The notes under the pieces: generated by a model
Databases searched by the model: none
Seen by the model: only the letters and a program-made list of their open reading frames with translations
Told to the model about the DNA's origin: nothing
Position numbers and translations under genes: made by a program
Source of the DNA: Aliikangiella sp. G2MR2-5
GTDB taxonomy: Bacteria; Pseudomonadota; Gammaproteobacteria; Enterobacterales; Kangiellaceae
Assembly: GCF_015687155.1 (NCBI RefSeq)
Contig: NZ_JADPQF010000001.1
Location: 1,116,001 to 1,180,000 of the forward strand
Length of the DNA: 64,000 bases
Reading direction: 5' to 3'
Shown here: piece after piece, positions 13,338 to 24,017 of the stretch
How positions within the stretch are numbered: position 1 is the first letter of the stretch
How the letters are laid out: each line of letters begins with the position of its first letter

Positions 13338-14720
13338 TTGAAAGCTACCAAACTTGAATGGGATGAATCCATTCTAAAAAAATACAATGTTTCAGGTCCA
13401 AGATATACTTCGTATCCAACAGCACTAGAGTTTTCAGGTGACTATCAGCTGGAAGACTATGTGTCATGCATAGAGTCGATTGATAAGGATAAATCTTTAT
13501 CACTCTATATCCATATCCCTTTTTGTCAGAATATTTGTTATTACTGCGCTTGTAATAAGGTTATCACGAAAGATCATTCTAAATCAGAACGTTACGTAAG
13601 TAACCTGATAAAAGAGATTAAAATGGTGGCCGCCAAATCACCGGCGAAGGTATTGCGCCAGATTCATTGGGGTGGGGGAACTCCAACTTTTCTGCTGATG
13701 GAACAGATAGCGGCAATAATGGAGACAATAAGAGAATCTTTCATCGTTCCGGATGAGAGTTCAACTGAGATTTCAATTGAAGTCGATCCGAGGGCATTAA
13801 GGATTGAGGATATAAAAACATTAGCCCACATGGGCTTTAATAGAATGAGCATGGGAGTCCAGGATTTCGATCCTGATGTGCAAAAGTCTATTAATCGTAT
13901 TCAGCCTTACGAAATGACCAGAGATATGGTTGTTGAAGCTCGTAAATATGGTTTCCAGTCAATCAACCTTGATTTAATTTACGGTCTGCCACTGCAAACC
14001 CGCGAAACTTTTAAAGATACGCTGGAGAAAGTAATCGAGATTTCTCCGGACAGAATTTCTGTGTTTAACTATGCGCATTTGCCTCATCGGTTTAAACCAC
14101 AGAGAAGAATTATCGCTGCGCAGCTACCATCTCCCTCTGTAAAGCTTTCAATCTTTGAGTACATAATAGAAACCTTACAAAAGGATGGATACCTCTATAT
14201 AGGTATGGATCATTTTGCTAAACCCGATGATGAGCTAGCGATTGCACAGCAAAACAATTGTTTACACAGAAACTTTCAGGGTTATACGACTCATGAAGAA
14301 TATGAATTAATTGGTGTAGGCGTGTCTTCAATCGGCTCGATGAATGGGCAGTATCACCAGAATGTGCGTGATCTGGAAGATTACTACGAAGCTCTCGATG
14401 CCGGCCGATTGCCAAGTTGGAGGGGCGTTGGTATGACTTTCGATGACAAGGTAAGAAAGAAAGTGATATTTGATCTTATTTGTCATTTTGAGACTAACAA
14501 GAAAGAAGTGGAGCAGGAGTTCGACATCAATTTTGACAGCTATTTCAGTAAGGAGCTCTCACTACTCGACGAATTCAAAAATGATGGTTTGCTAACCGAA
14601 GATGAGGTAGCTCTAAAGGTAACTGGAAAGGGCAGGCTATTGATAAGGAATATTTGTATGATGTTTGACGCTTATCTTAACGAATTACAGGTCACTACCA
14701 GTTTCTCTAAAGTGATATAA
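13338..14720 (+). CDS. hemN: HemN, oxygen-independent coproporphyrinogen III oxidase
   Basis: HemN is a radical-SAM enzyme that makes protoporphyrinogen IX without oxygen. The 460 aa protein starts at TTG with AGGAAG upstream. It shows GPRYTSYPTA near the N-terminus and the cluster motif CQNICYYCAC (CxxxCxxCxC), which separates true HemN from HemW. It also shows HWGGGTPTFL, SMGVQDFDPDVQKSINR and the C-terminal HemN domain. It is followed by fnr, 124 bp downstream, and preceded by an FNR-like box, an arrangement well known near anr/hemN in other gammaproteobacteria. Confidence 0.96.
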   Translation: MKATKLEWDESILKKYNVSGPRYTSYPTALEFSGDYQLEDYVSCIESIDKDKSLSLYIHIPFCQNICYYCACNKVITKDHSKSERYVSNLIKEIKMVAAKSPAKVLRQIHWGGGTPTFLLMEQIAAIMETIRESFIVPDESSTEISIEVDPRALRIEDIKTLAHMGFNRMSMGVQDFDPDVQKSINRIQPYEMTRDMVVEARKYGFQSINLDLIYGLPLQTRETFKDTLEKVIEISPDRISVFNYAHLPHRFKPQRRIIAAQLPSPSVKLSIFEYIIETLQKDGYLYIGMDHFAKPDDELAIAQQNNCLHRNFQGYTTHEEYELIGVGVSSIGSMNGQYHQNVRDLEDYYEALDAGRLPSWRGVGMTFDDKVRKKVIFDLICHFETNKKEVEQEFDINFDSYFSKELSLLDEFKNDGLLTEDEVALKVTGKGRLLIRNICMMFDAYLNELQVTTSFSKVI

Positions 14721-14844: not shown

Positions 14845-15591
14845 TTGGATGAAAGATTGAAATTGTCTGCTAACAGCTCTCTGCACAGTGAAATCAGGTG
14901 TCAAACCTGTAGTATTCGTAGACTCTGCTTGCCAGTAATGCTTGCCGATTCTGAAATCGAACACTTGGAAAATATCGTTCAAAGAAAGAAGGTTCTGAAA
15001 AAGGGCGAATTTCTCTTTCATGCTGGTGACGATTTTGATGCTATCCATGCAATTCGTTCCGGCAGCCTAAAAACCTATACCATTAGTTCCGATGGTACAG
15101 AGCAAATTACCGGATTTCATTTGCCGGGTGAAATTGTCGGACTCAATGCAATTAGTAGTACTCAATACCCGAGTTTTGCCAAGGCATTGGAAACCTCTTT
15201 AGTTTGCTCGATCCCTTTTGATAAACTGGAAACATTGTCGAGAGATATTCCGGGATTACAGAAGCAGTTATTCAAGGTTATGAGCGGAGAAATTCGCGAT
15301 GAGCAGGAGTTGATGATGCTGTTAAGTAAGAAGAATGCAGACGAAAGATTCGCCGCATTTGTTATGAATCTTTCTGCTCGTTTTGGGCGACGAGGTCTTA
15401 GTGAAAAAGAATTCCAGCTTACCATGACGCGTGGAGATATCGGAAACTATCTTGGACTTGCGGTTGAAACAGTTAGTCGACTGGTTACTCGTCTTCAAAA
15501 GAAAGAACTTATTTCTATTCAGGATCGTTACATTCAAATTACCAATATGGATGAGCTCAGCGAGCTTGCAGGCACGGCTTGTCATACCTGA
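14845..15591 (+). CDS. fnr: Fnr/Anr-type oxygen-sensing transcriptional regulator
   Basis: Fnr binds an oxygen-labile [4Fe-4S] cluster and activates anaerobic genes. The 248 aa product has all four ligands: C19, C22 and C28 ([13 protein letters not shown]) and C121. A CRP-like sensor domain follows, and the recognition helix has [13 protein letters not shown] with the E-xx-SR pattern that reads TTGAT half-sites. The start is uncertain: TTG at 14845, 14857 or 14863 are all in frame and upstream of the first Cys. It sits next to hemN and among five FNR-like sites in this window. Confidence 0.95.
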
Positions 15592-15610: not shown

Positions 15611-15643
15611 AAAAAAAGCGCATTTTTAAATGCGCTTTTTTTT
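15611..15643. terminator. Bidirectional intrinsic terminator
   Basis: Seven A, GCGCAT-ttttaa-ATGCGC stem, eight T. It ends fnr and, in the other direction, overlaps the last codon of the PLP decarboxylase-like gene. Confidence 0.85.
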
Positions 15644-17606
15644 AGCAATTTTCCTTTATTATCTTTTCAAGAAATTGAAAATACTCATCGATATGTTCTG
15701 TTGGGGTATCGCCGGTAAGTAACCAGGGATTCATCAATGAATGTTTTAAGACCTTTAGTGACGATTGCTGCGAGCCTATAATATCAGGCTCCTTGATTCC
15801 GAGGCTTTCCATTTGTCTGTTGGCTTCTGCTTCCGAGAGCTTTCTCATATCCATTTCACTAATTGAGCAAAGGTAGTCTTTAATTTGAACCGATTGTTGT
15901 GTGTCGTGTGCTAGCCTTTTAAATATACTATCAACGAATTCATTCGTTGCTTTCAATTGATTATTTGCTTTTGGGTTTAACGCGATACAAACGAGAAAAC
16001 TATCAGGTTCAAAAGGTAAGGTCACGCTTACTAAATCTTTAAGACGATGCTCTAGCTCTTGCACTTTGTAAGCAAAATATTGAGCGGCGATTATTGATCC
16101 CCTTATTACTCTACCAAAGCCCTCAGAGTTTAGCGGCAAAATCCGGTGGGTAACATATAGCGACGCTGCATTTGCTCCTGGTTTTGTTCCTTCTAGAATA
16201 TAGTGACTTAATTGGAGCAGATCTAGTTGATCCTTATTATCAACAATGTTCTTTTCTCTAGGATTGAGCAGTTTTACAATTTCTCGGTTACGAGTTACAA
16301 ATCCGCCAATACCTTGAGGTAAGTAGCCTAGAGTATGTGGAGCTATTGTAATGCTGTCAGCTTCTCCCAACTGATCAAATGCCTGATATACAAGAGTAGA
16401 AGGAAAGTCGCTGTTTTCACTGATTACTTCATTTCTACTGACACGTCTGCCATTATTATCAACAAACAATGTTTTTAGGTAGCCCCCCTGGGAGGCGTCA
16501 ACGTGGATGTAAAAACAAAGTCCTTTCTTGGCATATTTATCCCTAAGTTCTACTATTTTGTGTATTGGATCGATTGATCCAAATTCAGTAGTGCCTAATA
16601 CTCCAACTACGGATAATACAGGAATGTTTTGTGATAAAAGCTTGCCAAGAATACGATCTAGCTCGCCGATATCCATACGCATATGTTGGTCAATAGGGAC
16701 TTCAATAAGGGAAGCACTGCCAAATCCCATAAGACGCATCGCTTTGGTCCAAAAATCAAAAGCAGTAGAAGGTACTAAAACCACCGGTTGATGTAATCGA
16801 TAGTGTTCTGCGAAAAACTGCGAGGGTCCAATAGTTTCTATACGACTTTTCTGAAGAAGACGATAGAACTCCCTTACGCTATCAACTCCTAGTTTGGATT
16901 TGATTTTCTCAAACACCTTCGATCTGAAGGAAAGAACCTCATCGATCGACAGGTTAACCAGCTCCCACGCTGAATATTCAAATGGATCTTTTAAAACTCT
17001 ATCATTGAGTGAAATATTGAGTCGCATTTCCTTGAGTGCCTCTACTACGGCAACAGGATGATACTTTACTGTCCTAAAATTCCATAGGCTTTCATAATTA
17101 GCATCAGAACCGCCACTAGTAACATGACCCCAGGCACAAGGTGTTTGGTTTGGATCTGTATTGAATCCAAAAAGCTTGGCGAACTCTAAGCCGACTTTCA
17201 ATTCCATTCTAATGGCTGTTTCGCCTAAATCATTTAAACTGTTGTTCGGGTTGTAAAACGTCGTAATTAGTTGAGCCAGTAAAGATGGAACCATTAAATC
17301 TGATGCCGATTGCCCTAAGTAGCGTGGATTATATACTGGTGCCGAATGTTGAAGCTTTTTAGTCAACTCTTCCAGCTCAGTTCTTATTTTTTCTGCAGTA
17401 GGACTATGCAAATTTAAATCTAATGCTTCCTTAATTTGGTCATCTTCCGGGTGGAAATTTGTTCGCCATGCCAAGTGTTCATTAATGCTGTTGGATAAAA
17501 GTGACTTAACCAGTTCTGTATTCTCACCTTTAGAGCCAAGAAAAAGGGAAGAGATAAACAAGCGATCTTCTTTTGAGTACAAGCTGTTAGCTGCTGCTTT
17601 TTTCAT
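15642..17606 (-). CDS. Group II PLP-dependent decarboxylase homologue lacking the catalytic lysine
   Basis: The family decarboxylates amino acids such as Glu, Tyr or Asp using pyridoxal phosphate. The 654 aa product is longer than common members (about 480-620 aa). It keeps the phosphate/ring-binding region GHVTSGGSDANYESLWNFR and the H368-V-D370-A pair that binds the pyridine nitrogen. The expected DPHK motif, whose Lys forms the Schiff base, is instead A422-P-H-T425 within ADSITIAPHTLGYLP. I re-read this from the DNA (16332-16343) and it is not a frame error. Catalysis as a normal decarboxylase is therefore doubtful. It is divergent from mobA across an FNR box; whether that box also controls it is unclear. 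Confidence 0.85.
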   Translation of the reverse strand: MKKAAANSLYSKEDRLFISSLFLGSKGENTELVKSLLSNSINEHLAWRTNFHPEDDQIKEALDLNLHSPTAEKIRTELEELTKKLQHSAPVYNPRYLGQSASDLMVPSLLAQLITTFYNPNNSLNDLGETAIRMELKVGLEFAKLFGFNTDPNQTPCAWGHVTSGGSDANYESLWNFRTVKYHPVAVVEALKEMRLNISLNDRVLKDPFEYSAWELVNLSIDEVLSFRSKVFEKIKSKLGVDSVREFYRLLQKSRIETIGPSQFFAEHYRLHQPVVLVPSTAFDFWTKAMRLMGFGSASLIEVPIDQHMRMDIGELDRILGKLLSQNIPVLSVVGVLGTTEFGSIDPIHKIVELRDKYAKKGLCFYIHVDASQGGYLKTLFVDNNGRRVSRNEVISENSDFPSTLVYQAFDQLGEADSITIAPHTLGYLPQGIGGFVTRNREIVKLLNPREKNIVDNKDQLDLLQLSHYILEGTKPGANAASLYVTHRILPLNSEGFGRVIRGSIIAAQYFAYKVQELEHRLKDLVSVTLPFEPDSFLVCIALNPKANNQLKATNEFVDSIFKRLAHDTQQSVQIKDYLCSISEMDMRKLSEAEANRQMESLGIKEPDIIGSQQSSLKVLKHSLMNPWLLTGDTPTEHIDEYFQFLEKIIKENC

Positions 17607-17701: not shown

Positions 17702-17715
17702 TTGATCTGAATCAA
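17702..17715 (+). promoter_or_regulatory. Perfect FNR box at the mobA promoter
   Basis: TTGATCTGAATCAA matches TTGAT-N4-ATCAA at all 10 defined positions. A -10-like TTTACT (17739-17744) places the box centre near -41.5 of a start at about 17750, class II FNR geometry for mobA. Toward the divergent decarboxylase gene no matching -10 was seen at the equivalent distance. Confidence 0.75.
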
Positions 17716-17755: not shown

Positions 17756-18361
17756 ATGGAAAATAGAGATATTTTGAGTGATATAAAGGTGAAAAGTGTA
17801 AGTGGAATAATTCTCGCTGGTGGACGCGGCCGTCGTGTGGGAGGTCTTGATAAAGGGCTTCTTAAGTTTAAAGGTGATGAGTTGATTAAACATCAGGTCA
17901 GATGGTTGTCACCACAGGTAGATGAACTGCTCATCTCGGCGAATCGAAATCTCGAACATTATAAAAGCTTTGGTTACCCGGTTGTTAGTGACAGCGACCA
18001 AAACTTTAACGGACCATTAGCGGGAATTCTTGAAGGTTTAAAAAATTGTACCAATGATTGGTTATTTACCACACCTGTTGATGTTCCCTGCTTGCCTGAT
18101 GATCTGCTTACCAAGTTCTTCAATGAGTTTGGTTGCAGGGCACAGGTGGGCTACTTAAAGACAAATACACGAGACCATTATTTGAATATGCTCGTTAATA
18201 AATCTTCAATAGGATTACTTGAAAAAGCATGTGACCATGGTCGACTCCGAGTAAGGGACTTTCTGAGTTCTGCTGATGCTGTACCGATCGATCTTGGTTT
18301 AGACGAAGTATATTTTAGCAACTTGAACAATCTTGAGCAGTATGATTTCCCTACAAAATAG
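17756..18361 (+). CDS. mobA: MobA, molybdenum cofactor guanylyltransferase
   Basis: MobA adds GMP to molybdenum cofactor, giving the bis-MGD form used by DMSO-reductase-family enzymes such as nitrate and formate dehydrogenases. The 201 aa product has IILAGGRGRRVGGLDKGLL (residues 18-36, GTP-binding) and DVPCLPDDLL. The ATG at 17756 is only about 5 nt from the inferred transcription start and has no ribosome binding site. Translation may therefore begin at an in-frame TTG (17774) or GTG (17789) downstream; residues before SVSGIILAGG are not conserved in the family. Confidence 0.93.
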   Translation: MENRDILSDIKVKSVSGIILAGGRGRRVGGLDKGLLKFKGDELIKHQVRWLSPQVDELLISANRNLEHYKSFGYPVVSDSDQNFNGPLAGILEGLKNCTNDWLFTTPVDVPCLPDDLLTKFFNEFGCRAQVGYLKTNTRDHYLNMLVNKSSIGLLEKACDHGRLRVRDFLSSADAVPIDLGLDEVYFSNLNNLEQYDFPTK

Positions 18362-18421: not shown

Positions 18422-18453
18422 TTACTTTCTTACTTTCTTACTTTCTTACTTTC
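18422..18453. repeat. Four copies of an 8-bp repeat (TTACTTTC)
   Basis: TTACTTTC is repeated four times without change. On the minus strand this is GAAAGTAA, and the TAA stop of the DUF7009-like gene is inside the array. The unit carries a stop in the reading frame, so the encoded C-terminus (KKVRK) stays the same provided at least two units remain. Confidence 0.95.
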
Positions 18454-18758
18454 TTTAAATCGATTTCCAAAAAGGCAGCAGGAACCTCACTGTTCGAATT
18501 AATTTTAATGCCTTGTTTGCTTGGTCTCGCAGATATTTCTTCGATTATTTCTGTTTTATTAACAGATAAAATAATTTGGTGAGAATCCTCATTGTATTGC
18601 AGATAACTCTCATTAGAAGTGGACTTGATCTGATACGTTAGTAAAAACTTGTCATTCAATTTAATCGAGTCTGAGCATAGATATCCATCAATAAGGGACT
18701 TTGCTTCATCTTGTGATACTCTGAAGCGGATCTGATTATCCTGTATTCTAATATACAT
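18438..18758 (-). CDS. Small DUF7009-like protein in the moaA-moeA operon
   Basis: 106 aa, function unknown. The start MYIRIQDNQIRFRVSQDEAKSLIDG resembles the DUF7009 pattern (MKIRIxxNSIRxRLxxxE), followed by LLTYQI and a C-terminal LEIDLKK where the family has an EKDF-type segment. No signal peptide or membrane segment. It is the third gene after moaA and moeA, 15 bp behind moeA, so a role in molybdenum cofactor or molybdoenzyme handling is suggested by context only. The family name is from memory of its N-terminal pattern. Confidence 0.6.
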   Translation of the reverse strand: MYIRIQDNQIRFRVSQDEAKSLIDGYLCSDSIKLNDKFLLTYQIKSTSNESYLQYNEDSHQIILSVNKTEIIEEISARPSKQGIKINSNSEVPAAFLEIDLKKVRK

Positions 18759-21286: not shown

Positions 21287-21354
21287 ATTTTATTGAATTG
21301 ACGCAAATTTTTGTTGATATGGATCAAGAAATTTCTTTTGTGAAAGAGTAGATT
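21287..21354. promoter_or_regulatory. Bidirectional FNR-dependent promoter pair for moaA and the porin gene
   Basis: A perfect FNR box TTGATATGGATCAA (21314-21327) lies midway between two -10 elements. TAAAAT on the minus strand (21287-21292) puts moaA's start near 21280, with the box centred near -40.5. TAGATT on the plus strand (21349-21354) puts the porin start near 21361, with the box at about -40.5. One palindromic site can thus be class II for both genes. Confidence 0.75.
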
Positions 21355-21433: not shown

Positions 21434-22621
21434 ATGAAGAATCAATTCAAAATGAGTATGGTTGCAGCAGCAGTAATTGCGGCTGGTTCAACTGGGGTTT
21501 ATGCTGAAGAAGGTGTTAGCAGCACTGTCGATGTAAGTTTCCGGTATCGAATTGAAACTGTTGATCAAGAAAGCATGGTTGAAGATGCGCAAGCGTCCAC
21601 CTTGAGAACCCGTGCAACGATAAAAACCAAGTGGAATGATAAGTTCGACTCGGTTCTAGAGTTTGATGATGTGACCGAAATCGGGATGGATGAATTTAAT
21701 GCCGGCCAAGGAAATACTCCAGATAGAAGTCAATATCCAGTGGTTGCTGATCCAGAAGGAACGGAAGTAAATCAAGCTTTCGTACGTTACAATGGTGACA
21801 GTACCAAAGTTGCCTACGGTCGGCAAAGAATCCTGATTGAAAACCAGCGGTTTGTAGGTGGAGTTGGTTGGCGACAAAACGAGCAGACTTATGATGGCCT
21901 GACAGTTAATACGAAGTTTGGTGAAGTCAATTTCAACTACGCCTATGTGTCAAATGTTAACCGAATCTTTGGTGAAGATGTTGATGCAGGCGATCATGAG
22001 CACAATACACACTTAATCAATGCTGACATGAAGCTTGGTGATGGAAAATTATCAGGTTACTACTTTGCGATAGAAAATGAAACCGCCCAGGGGGCTTCAA
22101 ATGATACCTTTGGGGTTCGTTACTCTGGTAAGGCTGGCACCTTTGCCTACACCGCAGAGCTAGCTACTCAGTCTGCCGGAAGTGATAATCCAAATGACTA
22201 TGATGCTAGTTACTACTTATTGGAAGGCGCATATAAGCCGGATGGCTATTCAATAGGCGCCGGGATCGAAGTGCTTGGCGGCGATTCAGCAAATGGCCAG
22301 GGGTTTACTACTTCTTTAGCAACGCTTCATAAATTCCAGGGTTGGGCAGACGTTTTTCTTGGAACGCCAGCTTCCGGTATAGAAGATATGTACCTTAACG
22401 GCTCTGTCAAATTAGGTGAGTTCAATTTGAAAGCTGTTTATCACACATTTGCTACAGATGAAGGTGGTGTTGATTTAGGTACGGAATTTGATTTAGCGCT
22501 CTCAAGAAAAATCAACAAAAAGACCTCTATGTTAATAAAGTACGCTAGCTTTGATAGTGACAATGAATTACTTTACTCTTCTAGAGATAAAATGTGGTTT
22601 ATGCTTACTTATAAGCTTTAG
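21434..22621 (+). CDS. Outer-membrane porin of the alginate-export type
   Basis: The 395 aa product has a signal peptide (MKNQFKMSMVAAAVIAAGS, cleavage near VYA-EEG, residues 24-25). The mature sequence is rich in alternating hydrophobic strands and ends in a C-terminal aromatic beta-signal (WFMLTYKL), so it should form an outer-membrane barrel. The pattern VDVSFRYRIETVDQ, TLRTRATIKTKWNDKF and VAYGRQRILIENQRFVGGVGWRQNEQTYDGL is that of the alginate_exp family. Substrate is unknown; members are often found with denitrification or anaerobic genes. Its promoter carries a perfect FNR box shared with moaA. It is monocistronic, ended by a strong terminator. Confidence 0.85.
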   Translation: MKNQFKMSMVAAAVIAAGSTGVYAEEGVSSTVDVSFRYRIETVDQESMVEDAQASTLRTRATIKTKWNDKFDSVLEFDDVTEIGMDEFNAGQGNTPDRSQYPVVADPEGTEVNQAFVRYNGDSTKVAYGRQRILIENQRFVGGVGWRQNEQTYDGLTVNTKFGEVNFNYAYVSNVNRIFGEDVDAGDHEHNTHLINADMKLGDGKLSGYYFAIENETAQGASNDTFGVRYSGKAGTFAYTAELATQSAGSDNPNDYDASYYLLEGAYKPDGYSIGAGIEVLGGDSANGQGFTTSLATLHKFQGWADVFLGTPASGIEDMYLNGSVKLGEFNLKAVYHTFATDEGGVDLGTEFDLALSRKINKKTSMLIKYASFDSDNELLYSSRDKMWFMLTYKL

Positions 22622-22682: not shown

Positions 22683-24017
22683 TCAGCCAGCTTTAACTAC
22701 TTGCGGCTGTGCGGCATTTTCTTTGACAATTAACCCCATTTGACTGTCATAGCCTTCGGGTTTTTGTATCCATACCTGATGTCCAGAGCCAGGAGCAACG
22801 ATCATTTCACCACCGTAAGGGTTAGTCATCCATTCAAGTCTTTGCTGAATATCGCCCTGCGGTGACATAAATATCAGTTCATCTCCAATTTGAAAGCGAT
22901 TTTTGACATCCACTAATAGTCTATTGTCTTCAGTTTCCAGTACTTCTCCGACAAATAACTGGTTATGGCGCTCAGGGCTTCCATTGAGATAATTCTGATA
23001 GTCGTCATGTACATGACGTCTAAAGAAGCCTTCGGTATAACCACGGTTCGCCATGCCTTGTAAAGTATCCATAAGACCCATGTCGAATGGTTTTCCAGCC
23101 ATCGCATCATCGATAGCTTTGCGATAGACCTGAGAGGTTCTCGCTGCATAGAAGTGGGATTTAGTTCGGCCTTCGATTTTAAGACAATCAACTCCGATTT
23201 CAATCAACTTTTCAACGTGCTGTATCGCACGTAAGTCCTTGGAATTGAAGATATAAGTGCCGTGCTCGTCTTCATACATTGGCATAAATTCGCCAGGGCG
23301 TTGATTTTCTTCAAGAAGCACAAGTTTGTCACTGGTCTCACCAATCCCAATTTGAGGCTCAGGTTTAACAACCTGAATGTCTCCGGTTTCTTGCATTTCA
23401 GCTTCGTGAACTTTATATCCCCAACGGCAAGCATTAGTGCAAGTACCTTGATTTGGATCTCTGTGATTGAAGTAACCAGATAATAAGCAGCGTCCGGAAT
23501 AAGCAATACAAAGCGCGCCGTGGACGAAAACTTCGAGCTCGATATCCGGACATTGTTGCCTGATTTCAGCGACCTCATCCAAAGATAACTCTCGCGACAA
23601 GATAACTCGCTTAATCCCGAAGGACTGCCAGAACTTCACTGCAGCATAATTGACTGTATTTGCTTGAACAGAAAGGTGAAGAACTGCTTCAGGCCACTTT
23701 TCTTTGACCATCATCATTAACCCAGGATCTGACATTATTAAAGCGTCAGGTTGCATATTAACAATCGGTTCTATGTCCTTGAGGAAGGTTTTTACTTTGC
23801 TATTATGTGGGGCGATATTGGCAGCAACGAAAAACTGCTTTCCCATCGACTGGGCTTCTTTAATTCCCAGGTCGATATTTTCCATGTTGAAGCTATTATT
23901 TCGTACGCGCAGGCTATAGCGTGGTAGACCTGCATAAACCGCATCTGCTCCATAGGCAAACGCATAGCGCATATGTTTTAAAGAGCCCGCTGGGGCTAGT
24001 AGTTCTGGCTTTAGCAT
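22683..24017 (-). CDS. trhP: TrhP (YegQ), U32-family tRNA hydroxylation protein
   Basis: TrhP takes part in prephenate-dependent, oxygen-independent formation of 5-hydroxyuridine at tRNA position 34. The 444 aa product has the U32 blocks ELLAPAGSLKHMRYAFAYGADAVYAG and FVHGALCIAYSGRCLLSGYFNHRDPNQGTCTNACRW, whose cysteines bind an Fe-S cluster. It also has LKIEGRTKSHFYAARTSQVYR and a C-terminal beta-barrel domain. Close to the E. coli length. It is functionally tied to cmoA and cmoB, which finish the cmo5U modification and whose CmoA also uses prephenate. Confidence 0.93.
   Translation of the reverse strand: MLKPELLAPAGSLKHMRYAFAYGADAVYAGLPRYSLRVRNNSFNMENIDLGIKEAQSMGKQFFVAANIAPHNSKVKTFLKDIEPIVNMQPDALIMSDPGLMMMVKEKWPEAVLHLSVQANTVNYAAVKFWQSFGIKRVILSRELSLDEVAEIRQQCPDIELEVFVHGALCIAYSGRCLLSGYFNHRDPNQGTCTNACRWGYKVHEAEMQETGDIQVVKPEPQIGIGETSDKLVLLEENQRPGEFMPMYEDEHGTYIFNSKDLRAIQHVEKLIEIGVDCLKIEGRTKSHFYAARTSQVYRKAIDDAMAGKPFDMGLMDTLQGMANRGYTEGFFRRHVHDDYQNYLNGSPERHNQLFVGEVLETEDNRLLVDVKNRFQIGDELIFMSPQGDIQQRLEWMTNPYGGEMIVAPGSGHQVWIQKPEGYDSQMGLIVKENAAQPQVVKAG

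Follow-up and report, generated by a model that had tools for sequence, protein, structure and literature searches.

The window analyzed here (the whole stretch of 64,000 nucleotides of Aliikangiella sp. G2MR2-5) harbors on its reverse strand an intact open reading frame of 654 codons, whose product resembles bacterial tyrosine decarboxylases (TDC) but lacks the Schiff-base lysine for pyridoxal phosphate (PLP). The gene is flanked by fnr and mobA, and its residues were mapped by alignment to the TDC of L. brevis (LbTDC). The features referred to below are as follows:

15642..17606, reverse strand: lysine-less TDC-like gene, 654 aa, stop codon included (TIGR03811, PF00282, and PDB 5hsi matches)
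16332..16343, reverse strand: codons 422–425, APHT replacing DPHK (LbTDC D389–K392), from the PDB alignment and codon read-out
16752..16760, reverse strand: codons 283–285, F-D-F replacing H-Y-S, with F283 as the counterpart of the PLP-stacking His (LbTDC H241)
16497..16499, reverse strand: codon 370, a retained Asp corresponding to LbTDC D328 (pyridine nitrogen)
16491..16493, reverse strand: codon 372, Ser in 4/4 members of the lysine-less clade vs. Ala in 19/19 DPHK orthologues (LbTDC A330)
16242..16256, reverse strand: codons 451–455, flexible catalytic loop, with N453 as the counterpart of the catalytic Tyr (LbTDC Y420)
17702..17715, no strand: perfect FNR-type palindrome TTGATnnnnATCAA, between the TDC-like gene (start 17606) and the divergent mobA (start 17756)
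14845..15591, forward strand: fnr, an oxygen-response gene, the convergent neighbor (NF008365, 344.6 bits, cut-off 228)
17756..18361, forward strand: mobA, the divergent neighbor, molybdenum cofactor guanylyltransferase (TIGR02665, 163.6 bits, cut-off 151.85)
13338..14720, forward strand: hemN, oxygen-independent coproporphyrinogen III oxidase, adjoining fnr (TIGR00538, 610 bits, cut-off 325)

The affiliation of the protein with the group II PLP decarboxylase superfamily is indicated both by its PF00282 score (53.2 bits vs. the curated cut-off of 27) and by its fold. The TIGR03811 match extends over nearly the full length (E 1.5e-99), and its 334.1 bits fall far below the equivalog cut-off of 905.3, so the protein does not qualify as a TDC equivalog. 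The best PDB relatives found by phmmer were the TDC of L. brevis and E. faecalis (EfTDC), with E 1.3e-78 for 5hsi. A Foldseek search with the AlphaFold2 model also placed TDC structures at the top (probability 1.00, TM about 0.7–0.8, rmsd 5–6), so the overall fold, held to be kept by the initial annotation, seemingly is. The model (mean pLDDT 72.9) has a poorly modeled N-terminus and low confidence across much of residues 1–127 and in 449–474; it informs on the core fold, not on the pocket geometry.

The gene is present in four of the seven genomes of the genus (the window genome, G000, along with G002, G003, and G004). In these four and in four genomes of a sister genus, where the DPHK motif is retained, it is convergent to fnr (8/8). 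The mobA gene lies on the other side in seven of the eight, being absent from the short G003 stretch, and hemN or part of it is found beyond fnr in six of the eight; in G003, hemN is located on the contig of fnr but some 18 kb away, and none was found in G010. In two members of another family, fnr also stands beside the TDC-like gene; in the stretches examined from Kangiella, Pleionea, and Microbulbifer, the fnr/mobA neighborhood is not kept. Since the lysine-less genes occupy the same fnr/mobA locus as their DPHK relatives, they are to be regarded as orthologues of the DPHK enzyme, not as second copies. The DPHK orthologues (Kangiella aquimarina, Pleionea sp., Microbulbifer marinus, and others) are 40–48% identical to the window protein and similar in length, and those of the four sister-genus genomes share its fnr and mobA synteny; unlike it, they have intact catalytic residues and are presumed to be active. 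The sister-genus orthologues can serve as natural controls.

We regard G002 as A. marina, and the genus as Aliikangiella: the G002 protein is identical to that of Aliikangiella marina GYP-15 over 651 aligned residues, and the two share the same two-copy layout. In A. marina (NZ_VIKR01000006.1; L034, L035), the fnr–gene–mobA region occurs twice, ~19.6 kb apart, with at least 8,319 bases matching exactly; the repeat either arose by a recent duplication event or is an artefact of the assembly.

The initial annotation had drawn attention to positions 16329–16346, i.e., the motif plus one codon on either side, where DPHK was said to read APHT at residues 422–425. This reading was confirmed: the stretch 16343–16332 aligns to D389-P-H-K392 of LbTDC, with the codons GCT for Ala, CAT for His, and ACT for Thr. 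The lysine is absent from 4/4 genus members holding the gene, the motif being APHT in G000, G003, and G004 and SPHS in G002, so the change is conserved in a clade, and the alternative that homologues of the same length all carry DPHK fails within the genus. At position 425, the three other genomes have threonine (ACA), serine (TCT), and threonine (ACT); the distance from a lysine codon amounts to two bases in G000 and G003 and to three in A. marina. Because ACT is two bases away from AAA/AAG and three other genomes agree, the change can be ascribed neither to chance nor to a base-calling error. A sequencing or assembly error, or a one-off mutation of the strain, deserves virtually no credence, since the four genomes, including that of the named isolate A. 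marina GYP-15, concur and other pocket codons have changed as well.

Outside the clade, the Schiff-base lysine is retained in 32/32 other aligned bacterial homologues, as are the stacking His and the phosphate Asp; the loop Tyr is present in 31/32. These 32 sequences comprise 19 treated as orthologues, several of which are close Kangiella relatives and so not independent, and 13 wider homologues, several of them distant, including a 790-aa paralogue from G003; the lysine-less clade is defined by four sequences only. Left out of both counts (19 and 32) were L022/L049 (runs of unknown letters; DPHK), L023/L031 (broken frame; DPHK), and L024/L050 (a fragment without the motif); all omitted rows of true relatives covering the motif read DPHK. 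Repeat finds of one gene were left out too, as was the duplicate A. marina copy, which is identical; the weak partial matches L025–L029 and L033 (E 1e-13 to 1e-3, 489–564 aa) were considered to belong to other PF00282 subfamilies and stand outside the counts. The L023/L031 row is a DPHK orthologue on contig 77 of G011 with its frame broken in the draft genome.

The four lysine-less proteins form one clade (support 100/99), which holds without the 17 changed columns described below; hence, the simplest reading is that the lysine was lost once, in the ancestor of the clade. A tree of Fnr and HemN did not resolve the species order within the genus. No viral relatives of the gene were found in viral_contigs. 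Relocation of the lysine elsewhere in the sequence was also considered and rejected: no alignment column has Lys in 4/4 clade members and in 0/19 DPHK orthologues.

The loss goes beyond the lysine. Like the bacterial TDC (LbTDC, 5HSI/5HSJ; EfTDC, 7CWX), of which it is a full-length homologue, the window protein retains the counterparts of Asp328 and His391; it is only ~28% identical to them, however, and has K392, H241, D389, and Y420 all replaced. Across the clade, the replacements are found in 4/4 at K392 (T/S; T425 in the window protein), H241 (Y/F; F283), D389 (A/S), Y420 (N/D; N453), and A330 (S), while DPHK, the stacking His, and the catalytic Tyr are intact in 19/19 DPHK orthologues. 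The counterparts of D328, H391, and G158 stay in 4/4, and that of T298 reads T, R, L, and T. Thus, Asp370, the pyridine-nitrogen residue, is kept as the initial annotation stated. Its claim of a kept phosphate region stands in part: G166, S/T167, and the hydroxyl of residue 474 (S/T) remain, but the phosphate-contacting Asp (LbTDC D389) is lost, its place being taken by the A of APHT. As judged from the alignment, then, the PLP site is not otherwise intact, and more has gone from it than was noticed earlier, i.e., the stacking His, the loop Tyr, and further pocket residues.

The neighboring histidine had been suggested as a substitute for the lysine, as in ColD. That lysine-free PLP sugar dehydratase carries His at the lysine position itself, where the clade has T/S in 4/4; moreover, His424 also occurs in 32/32 DPHK homologues and in LbTDC (H391), which deprives the suggestion of its basis.

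Of the alignment columns that do not vary among the 19 DPHK orthologues (161 in all), the lysine-less proteins retain 101 in 4/4 and have lost 17 in 4/4; five of the nine LbTDC cofactor/catalytic residues among the 161 fall within these 17 (hypergeometric P 0.0007, which assumes independent columns, and neighboring columns are not independent). The flexible catalytic loop contains four of the invariant columns, each of them lost in 4/4, and 65 of the 81 in the large domain are kept in 4/4; most of the conserved core remains. The control set comprised the 177 columns that do not vary among the other 15 DPHK orthologues: 21 of them are lost in the lysine-less clade vs. six in its DPHK sister clade, and no cofactor/catalytic residue is among the six. 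The residues F285, S372, and Q431 are identical in 4/4 clade members. At six changed pocket positions (283, 285, 372, 422, 425, and 453), picked after seeing them, the within-clade mean BLOSUM is 4.0 vs. 2.3 for DPHK-variable sites (P 0.034; P 0.13 vs. all sites); the 17 lost columns together average 2.09 and are no better conserved than the variable sites (2.30). The similar letters at the six positions hint at a pocket with a new use, and constraint on such a pocket is weakly supported.

The consequences for catalysis can be gauged from mutants. In LbTDC, the activity of Y420A and Y420F was not measurable, and most of the H241 mutants, in a set including H241F, were inactive, N and Q alone being named as partly active (PMC4904194). 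The same paper cites a 1,500-fold decrease, not zero, for K303A of DDC, and it lists His192, along with some further pocket residues of that enzyme, as nonessential (PMC4904194). Trace activity after the lysine change alone is therefore conceivable, and the case for a dead enzyme rests on the joint loss of the lysine and the catalytic tyrosine. With both gone, the protein is very probably dead for decarboxylation. This is a warning for annotation: PF00282 scores the gene well above its cut-off, though the label “decarboxylase” is unwarranted.

Could the protein still be an enzyme, holding PLP or PMP noncovalently (by Asp370, G166, S/T167, S/T474, and the stacking aromatic residue) and running a different, ColD-like reaction? 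The pocket has some of what this would take: Asp370 is kept in 4/4, His283 has given way only to the aromatic Y/F, and the phosphate-cup G166 and hydroxyls persist. Also, the PDB holds a crystal of EfTDC K392A, by its entry title “in complex with the cofactor PLP”, so the lysine is dispensable for seating PLP, and binding without it is physically possible; no open paper naming EfTDC K392A was found among the matches listed. New chemistry of this kind is nevertheless unlikely, as the catalytic Tyr and the loop are gone, no new Lys is common to the clade, and most of the LbTDC H241 mutants, H241F belonging to the set, were inactive (PMC4904194). It is possible that the protein binds PLP and is not a decarboxylase.

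A further proposal, also raised in the initial annotation, is that of a noncatalytic partner subunit of an active decarboxylase. LbTDC is a homodimer whose active site is formed at the subunit interface by residues of both chains (PMC4904194), and a precedent exists in LCB1/SPTLC1 of serine palmitoyltransferase, a retained PLP-enzyme homologue lacking the PLP lysine and paired with the lysine-bearing LCB2 (PMC3794620). LCB1 belongs to another family, and no TDC-like counterpart that could play the part of LCB2 was found in the window genome. Specifically, no TDC-like paralogue was found among the PF00282 proteins of G000: the best scores of the other two are those of a diaminobutyrate/PanP-like decarboxylase (below the models' cut-offs) and a histidine decarboxylase (above the cut-off). 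In G000 (two), G002 (three), and G004 (two), the other PF00282 proteins all score highest with diaminobutyrate/PanP-like or histidine decarboxylase models and not with TDC; a partnership with proteins this distant is conceivable. A TDC-like DPHK copy is thus absent from three of the four lysine-less genomes; the fourth, G003, encodes on contig 197 (L032) an additional TDC-like paralogue of 790 aa in which DPHK is intact, the one such case in the seven genus genomes, which would suit a partnership there. With no obvious partner elsewhere, and with the gene being the orthologue of the DPHK enzyme instead of a second copy beside one, the proposal is improbable.

The clade frames of 654–670 codons are all open at 51–56% pairwise protein identity, and differences among the four amount to 0.37–0.42 at the first codon position, 0.22–0.26 at the second, and 0.62–0.64 at the third. 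In a branch model, fixing the clade omega at 1 was worse than leaving it free by more than 450 log-likelihood units with both branch-length caps; the synonymous sites are saturated and several branch lengths lie at the cap, so the rejection of neutrality is used and no size of omega or strength of selection is derived. The view that the gene is intact and under selection, expressed in the initial annotation, is therefore borne out. At the same time, the TDC-like protein has changed more rapidly in the lysine-less clade than in the DPHK sister clade, although HemN and Fnr have diverged to a similar extent in both: G000 and G002 share 70% identity in HemN, 87% in Fnr, and 51% in the TDC-like protein vs. 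68%, 80%, and 71%, respectively, in the DPHK pair G008 and G012. Furthermore, in G001 and G005 fnr directly adjoins mobA, the TDC-like gene being absent, and neither the TDC-like gene nor mobA is present in the 6 kb running from fnr in G006 (82% complete). Since neutrality is rejected and the gene is missing from G001 and G005, it is under constraint in the genomes that keep it and dispensable in others.

The faster evolution and the absence between fnr and mobA in two genomes would suit a decaying remnant, catalytically lost, with fading constraint and heading to deletion. Such decay is nonetheless rather unlikely: four full-length frames have remained open after deep divergence with a strong codon-position bias and neutrality rejected, the large-domain columns are mostly kept (65/81 in 4/4), and a perfect FNR-type box is preserved in two members.

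The palindrome TTGATnnnnATCAA, which we take to be the FNR consensus, occurs in its perfect form twice in the 64-kb window vs. 0.19 expected. Within 200 bp upstream of the TDC-like gene, a perfect box is present in 2/4 lysine-less genes and 10/19 DPHK orthologues (12/23 together), the shuffle means being <0.01 in either group; 8 of the 10 DPHK carriers are from the Kangiella–Pleionea side, with the box at −67 to −71, and are not independent. Two Microbulbifer and three other-family rows have no box. In the window, the box lies upstream of the TDC-like gene, though nearer to mobA, which is 41 bp away and which it could serve equally well. In Kangiella aquimarina, the box is situated between a small DGC-domain gene and the TDC-like gene, with no mobA in the stretch examined and with the anaerobic ribonucleotide reductase gene nrdD and its activase close by; in Microbulbifer donghaiensis, the nearby genes include those for a NarK-like transporter (below the model cut-off) and nnrS. 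The FNR-type boxes and the anaerobic-metabolism neighbors make the TDC-like family look like a part of an oxygen-limitation programme.

Taken together, the best explanation, to which we assign a probability of about 0.6, is that of a lineage-specific pseudo-decarboxylase: a TDC-like orthologue, probably controlled by FNR, that has lost catalysis and is retained as a pseudoenzyme. Pseudoenzymes are defined in PMC10211241 by the absence of conserved catalytic motifs; such motifs are missing here, and the open frames and the rejected neutrality indicate that the gene is kept by selection. The partner-subunit, new-chemistry, and remnant readings are weaker. According to the pseudoenzyme reading, a TDC-like decarboxylase ancestor would have become catalytically inactive, most simply in a single event ancestral to the lysine-less clade of these marine Aliikangiella, and the known route of amino acid decarboxylation would no longer be open to the protein. 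It would fold as the usual homodimer, with the remodeled pocket (Y/F283, F285, S372, A/S422, T/S425, and N/D453) either holding a PLP-like or amino-acid-like ligand noncovalently or being closed, and it may act as a sensor, scaffold, or regulator under low oxygen, perhaps as a ligand-binding or regulatory homodimer. A more specific version is tentative: an in-place conversion of an oxygen-responsive amino-acid decarboxylase to a non-covalent sensor of PLP, a PLP–amino-acid adduct, or an amino acid, tuning anaerobic metabolism via ligand-dependent closure of the dimer. If this version is true, it would represent a signaling use of the group II decarboxylase fold.

Lysine-less PLP-enzyme homologues and pseudoenzymes are already known kinds. 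Thus, Rv3778c of M. tuberculosis is a bacterial PLP-enzyme homologue without the PLP lysine, described in PMC12910592 as likely noncatalytic; it is a relative of cysteine desulfurases, not a group II decarboxylase. In plants, a noncatalytic TSB-like paralogue with two residues changed activates its partner TSA (PMC12727527). No lysine-less clade of group II decarboxylases was found in the open literature among the best matches listed (e.g., the best 12 of 220), nor in the accessible part of the pseudoenzyme review PMC10211241, which is weak evidence for the absence of a prior one. What sets the present case apart is that the orthologue at a conserved locus itself seems to have lost catalysis with the gene retained; LCB1 works instead beside a lysine-bearing partner. 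The clade offers a clean system for studying the role of a decarboxylase fold without chemistry, the order of active-site losses, and the survival of an apparently FNR-linked gene.

Several minor observations concern the surroundings. The second perfect FNR-type palindrome of the window is located at 21314–21327, about 107 bp upstream of an open reading frame at 21434–22621 on the forward strand, for which no NCBIfam match was obtained at E 1e-15. A gene for a DUF7009 protein (18438–18758, reverse strand) lies beside mobA, and small open reading frames resembling it by eye are seen in the same block of G004, G001, and the sister genus. Finally, the window carries a gene for a TrhP-type U32 protein (22683–24017, reverse strand), and the same U32 family also adjoins the DPHK decarboxylase in Microbulbifer donghaiensis (L047).
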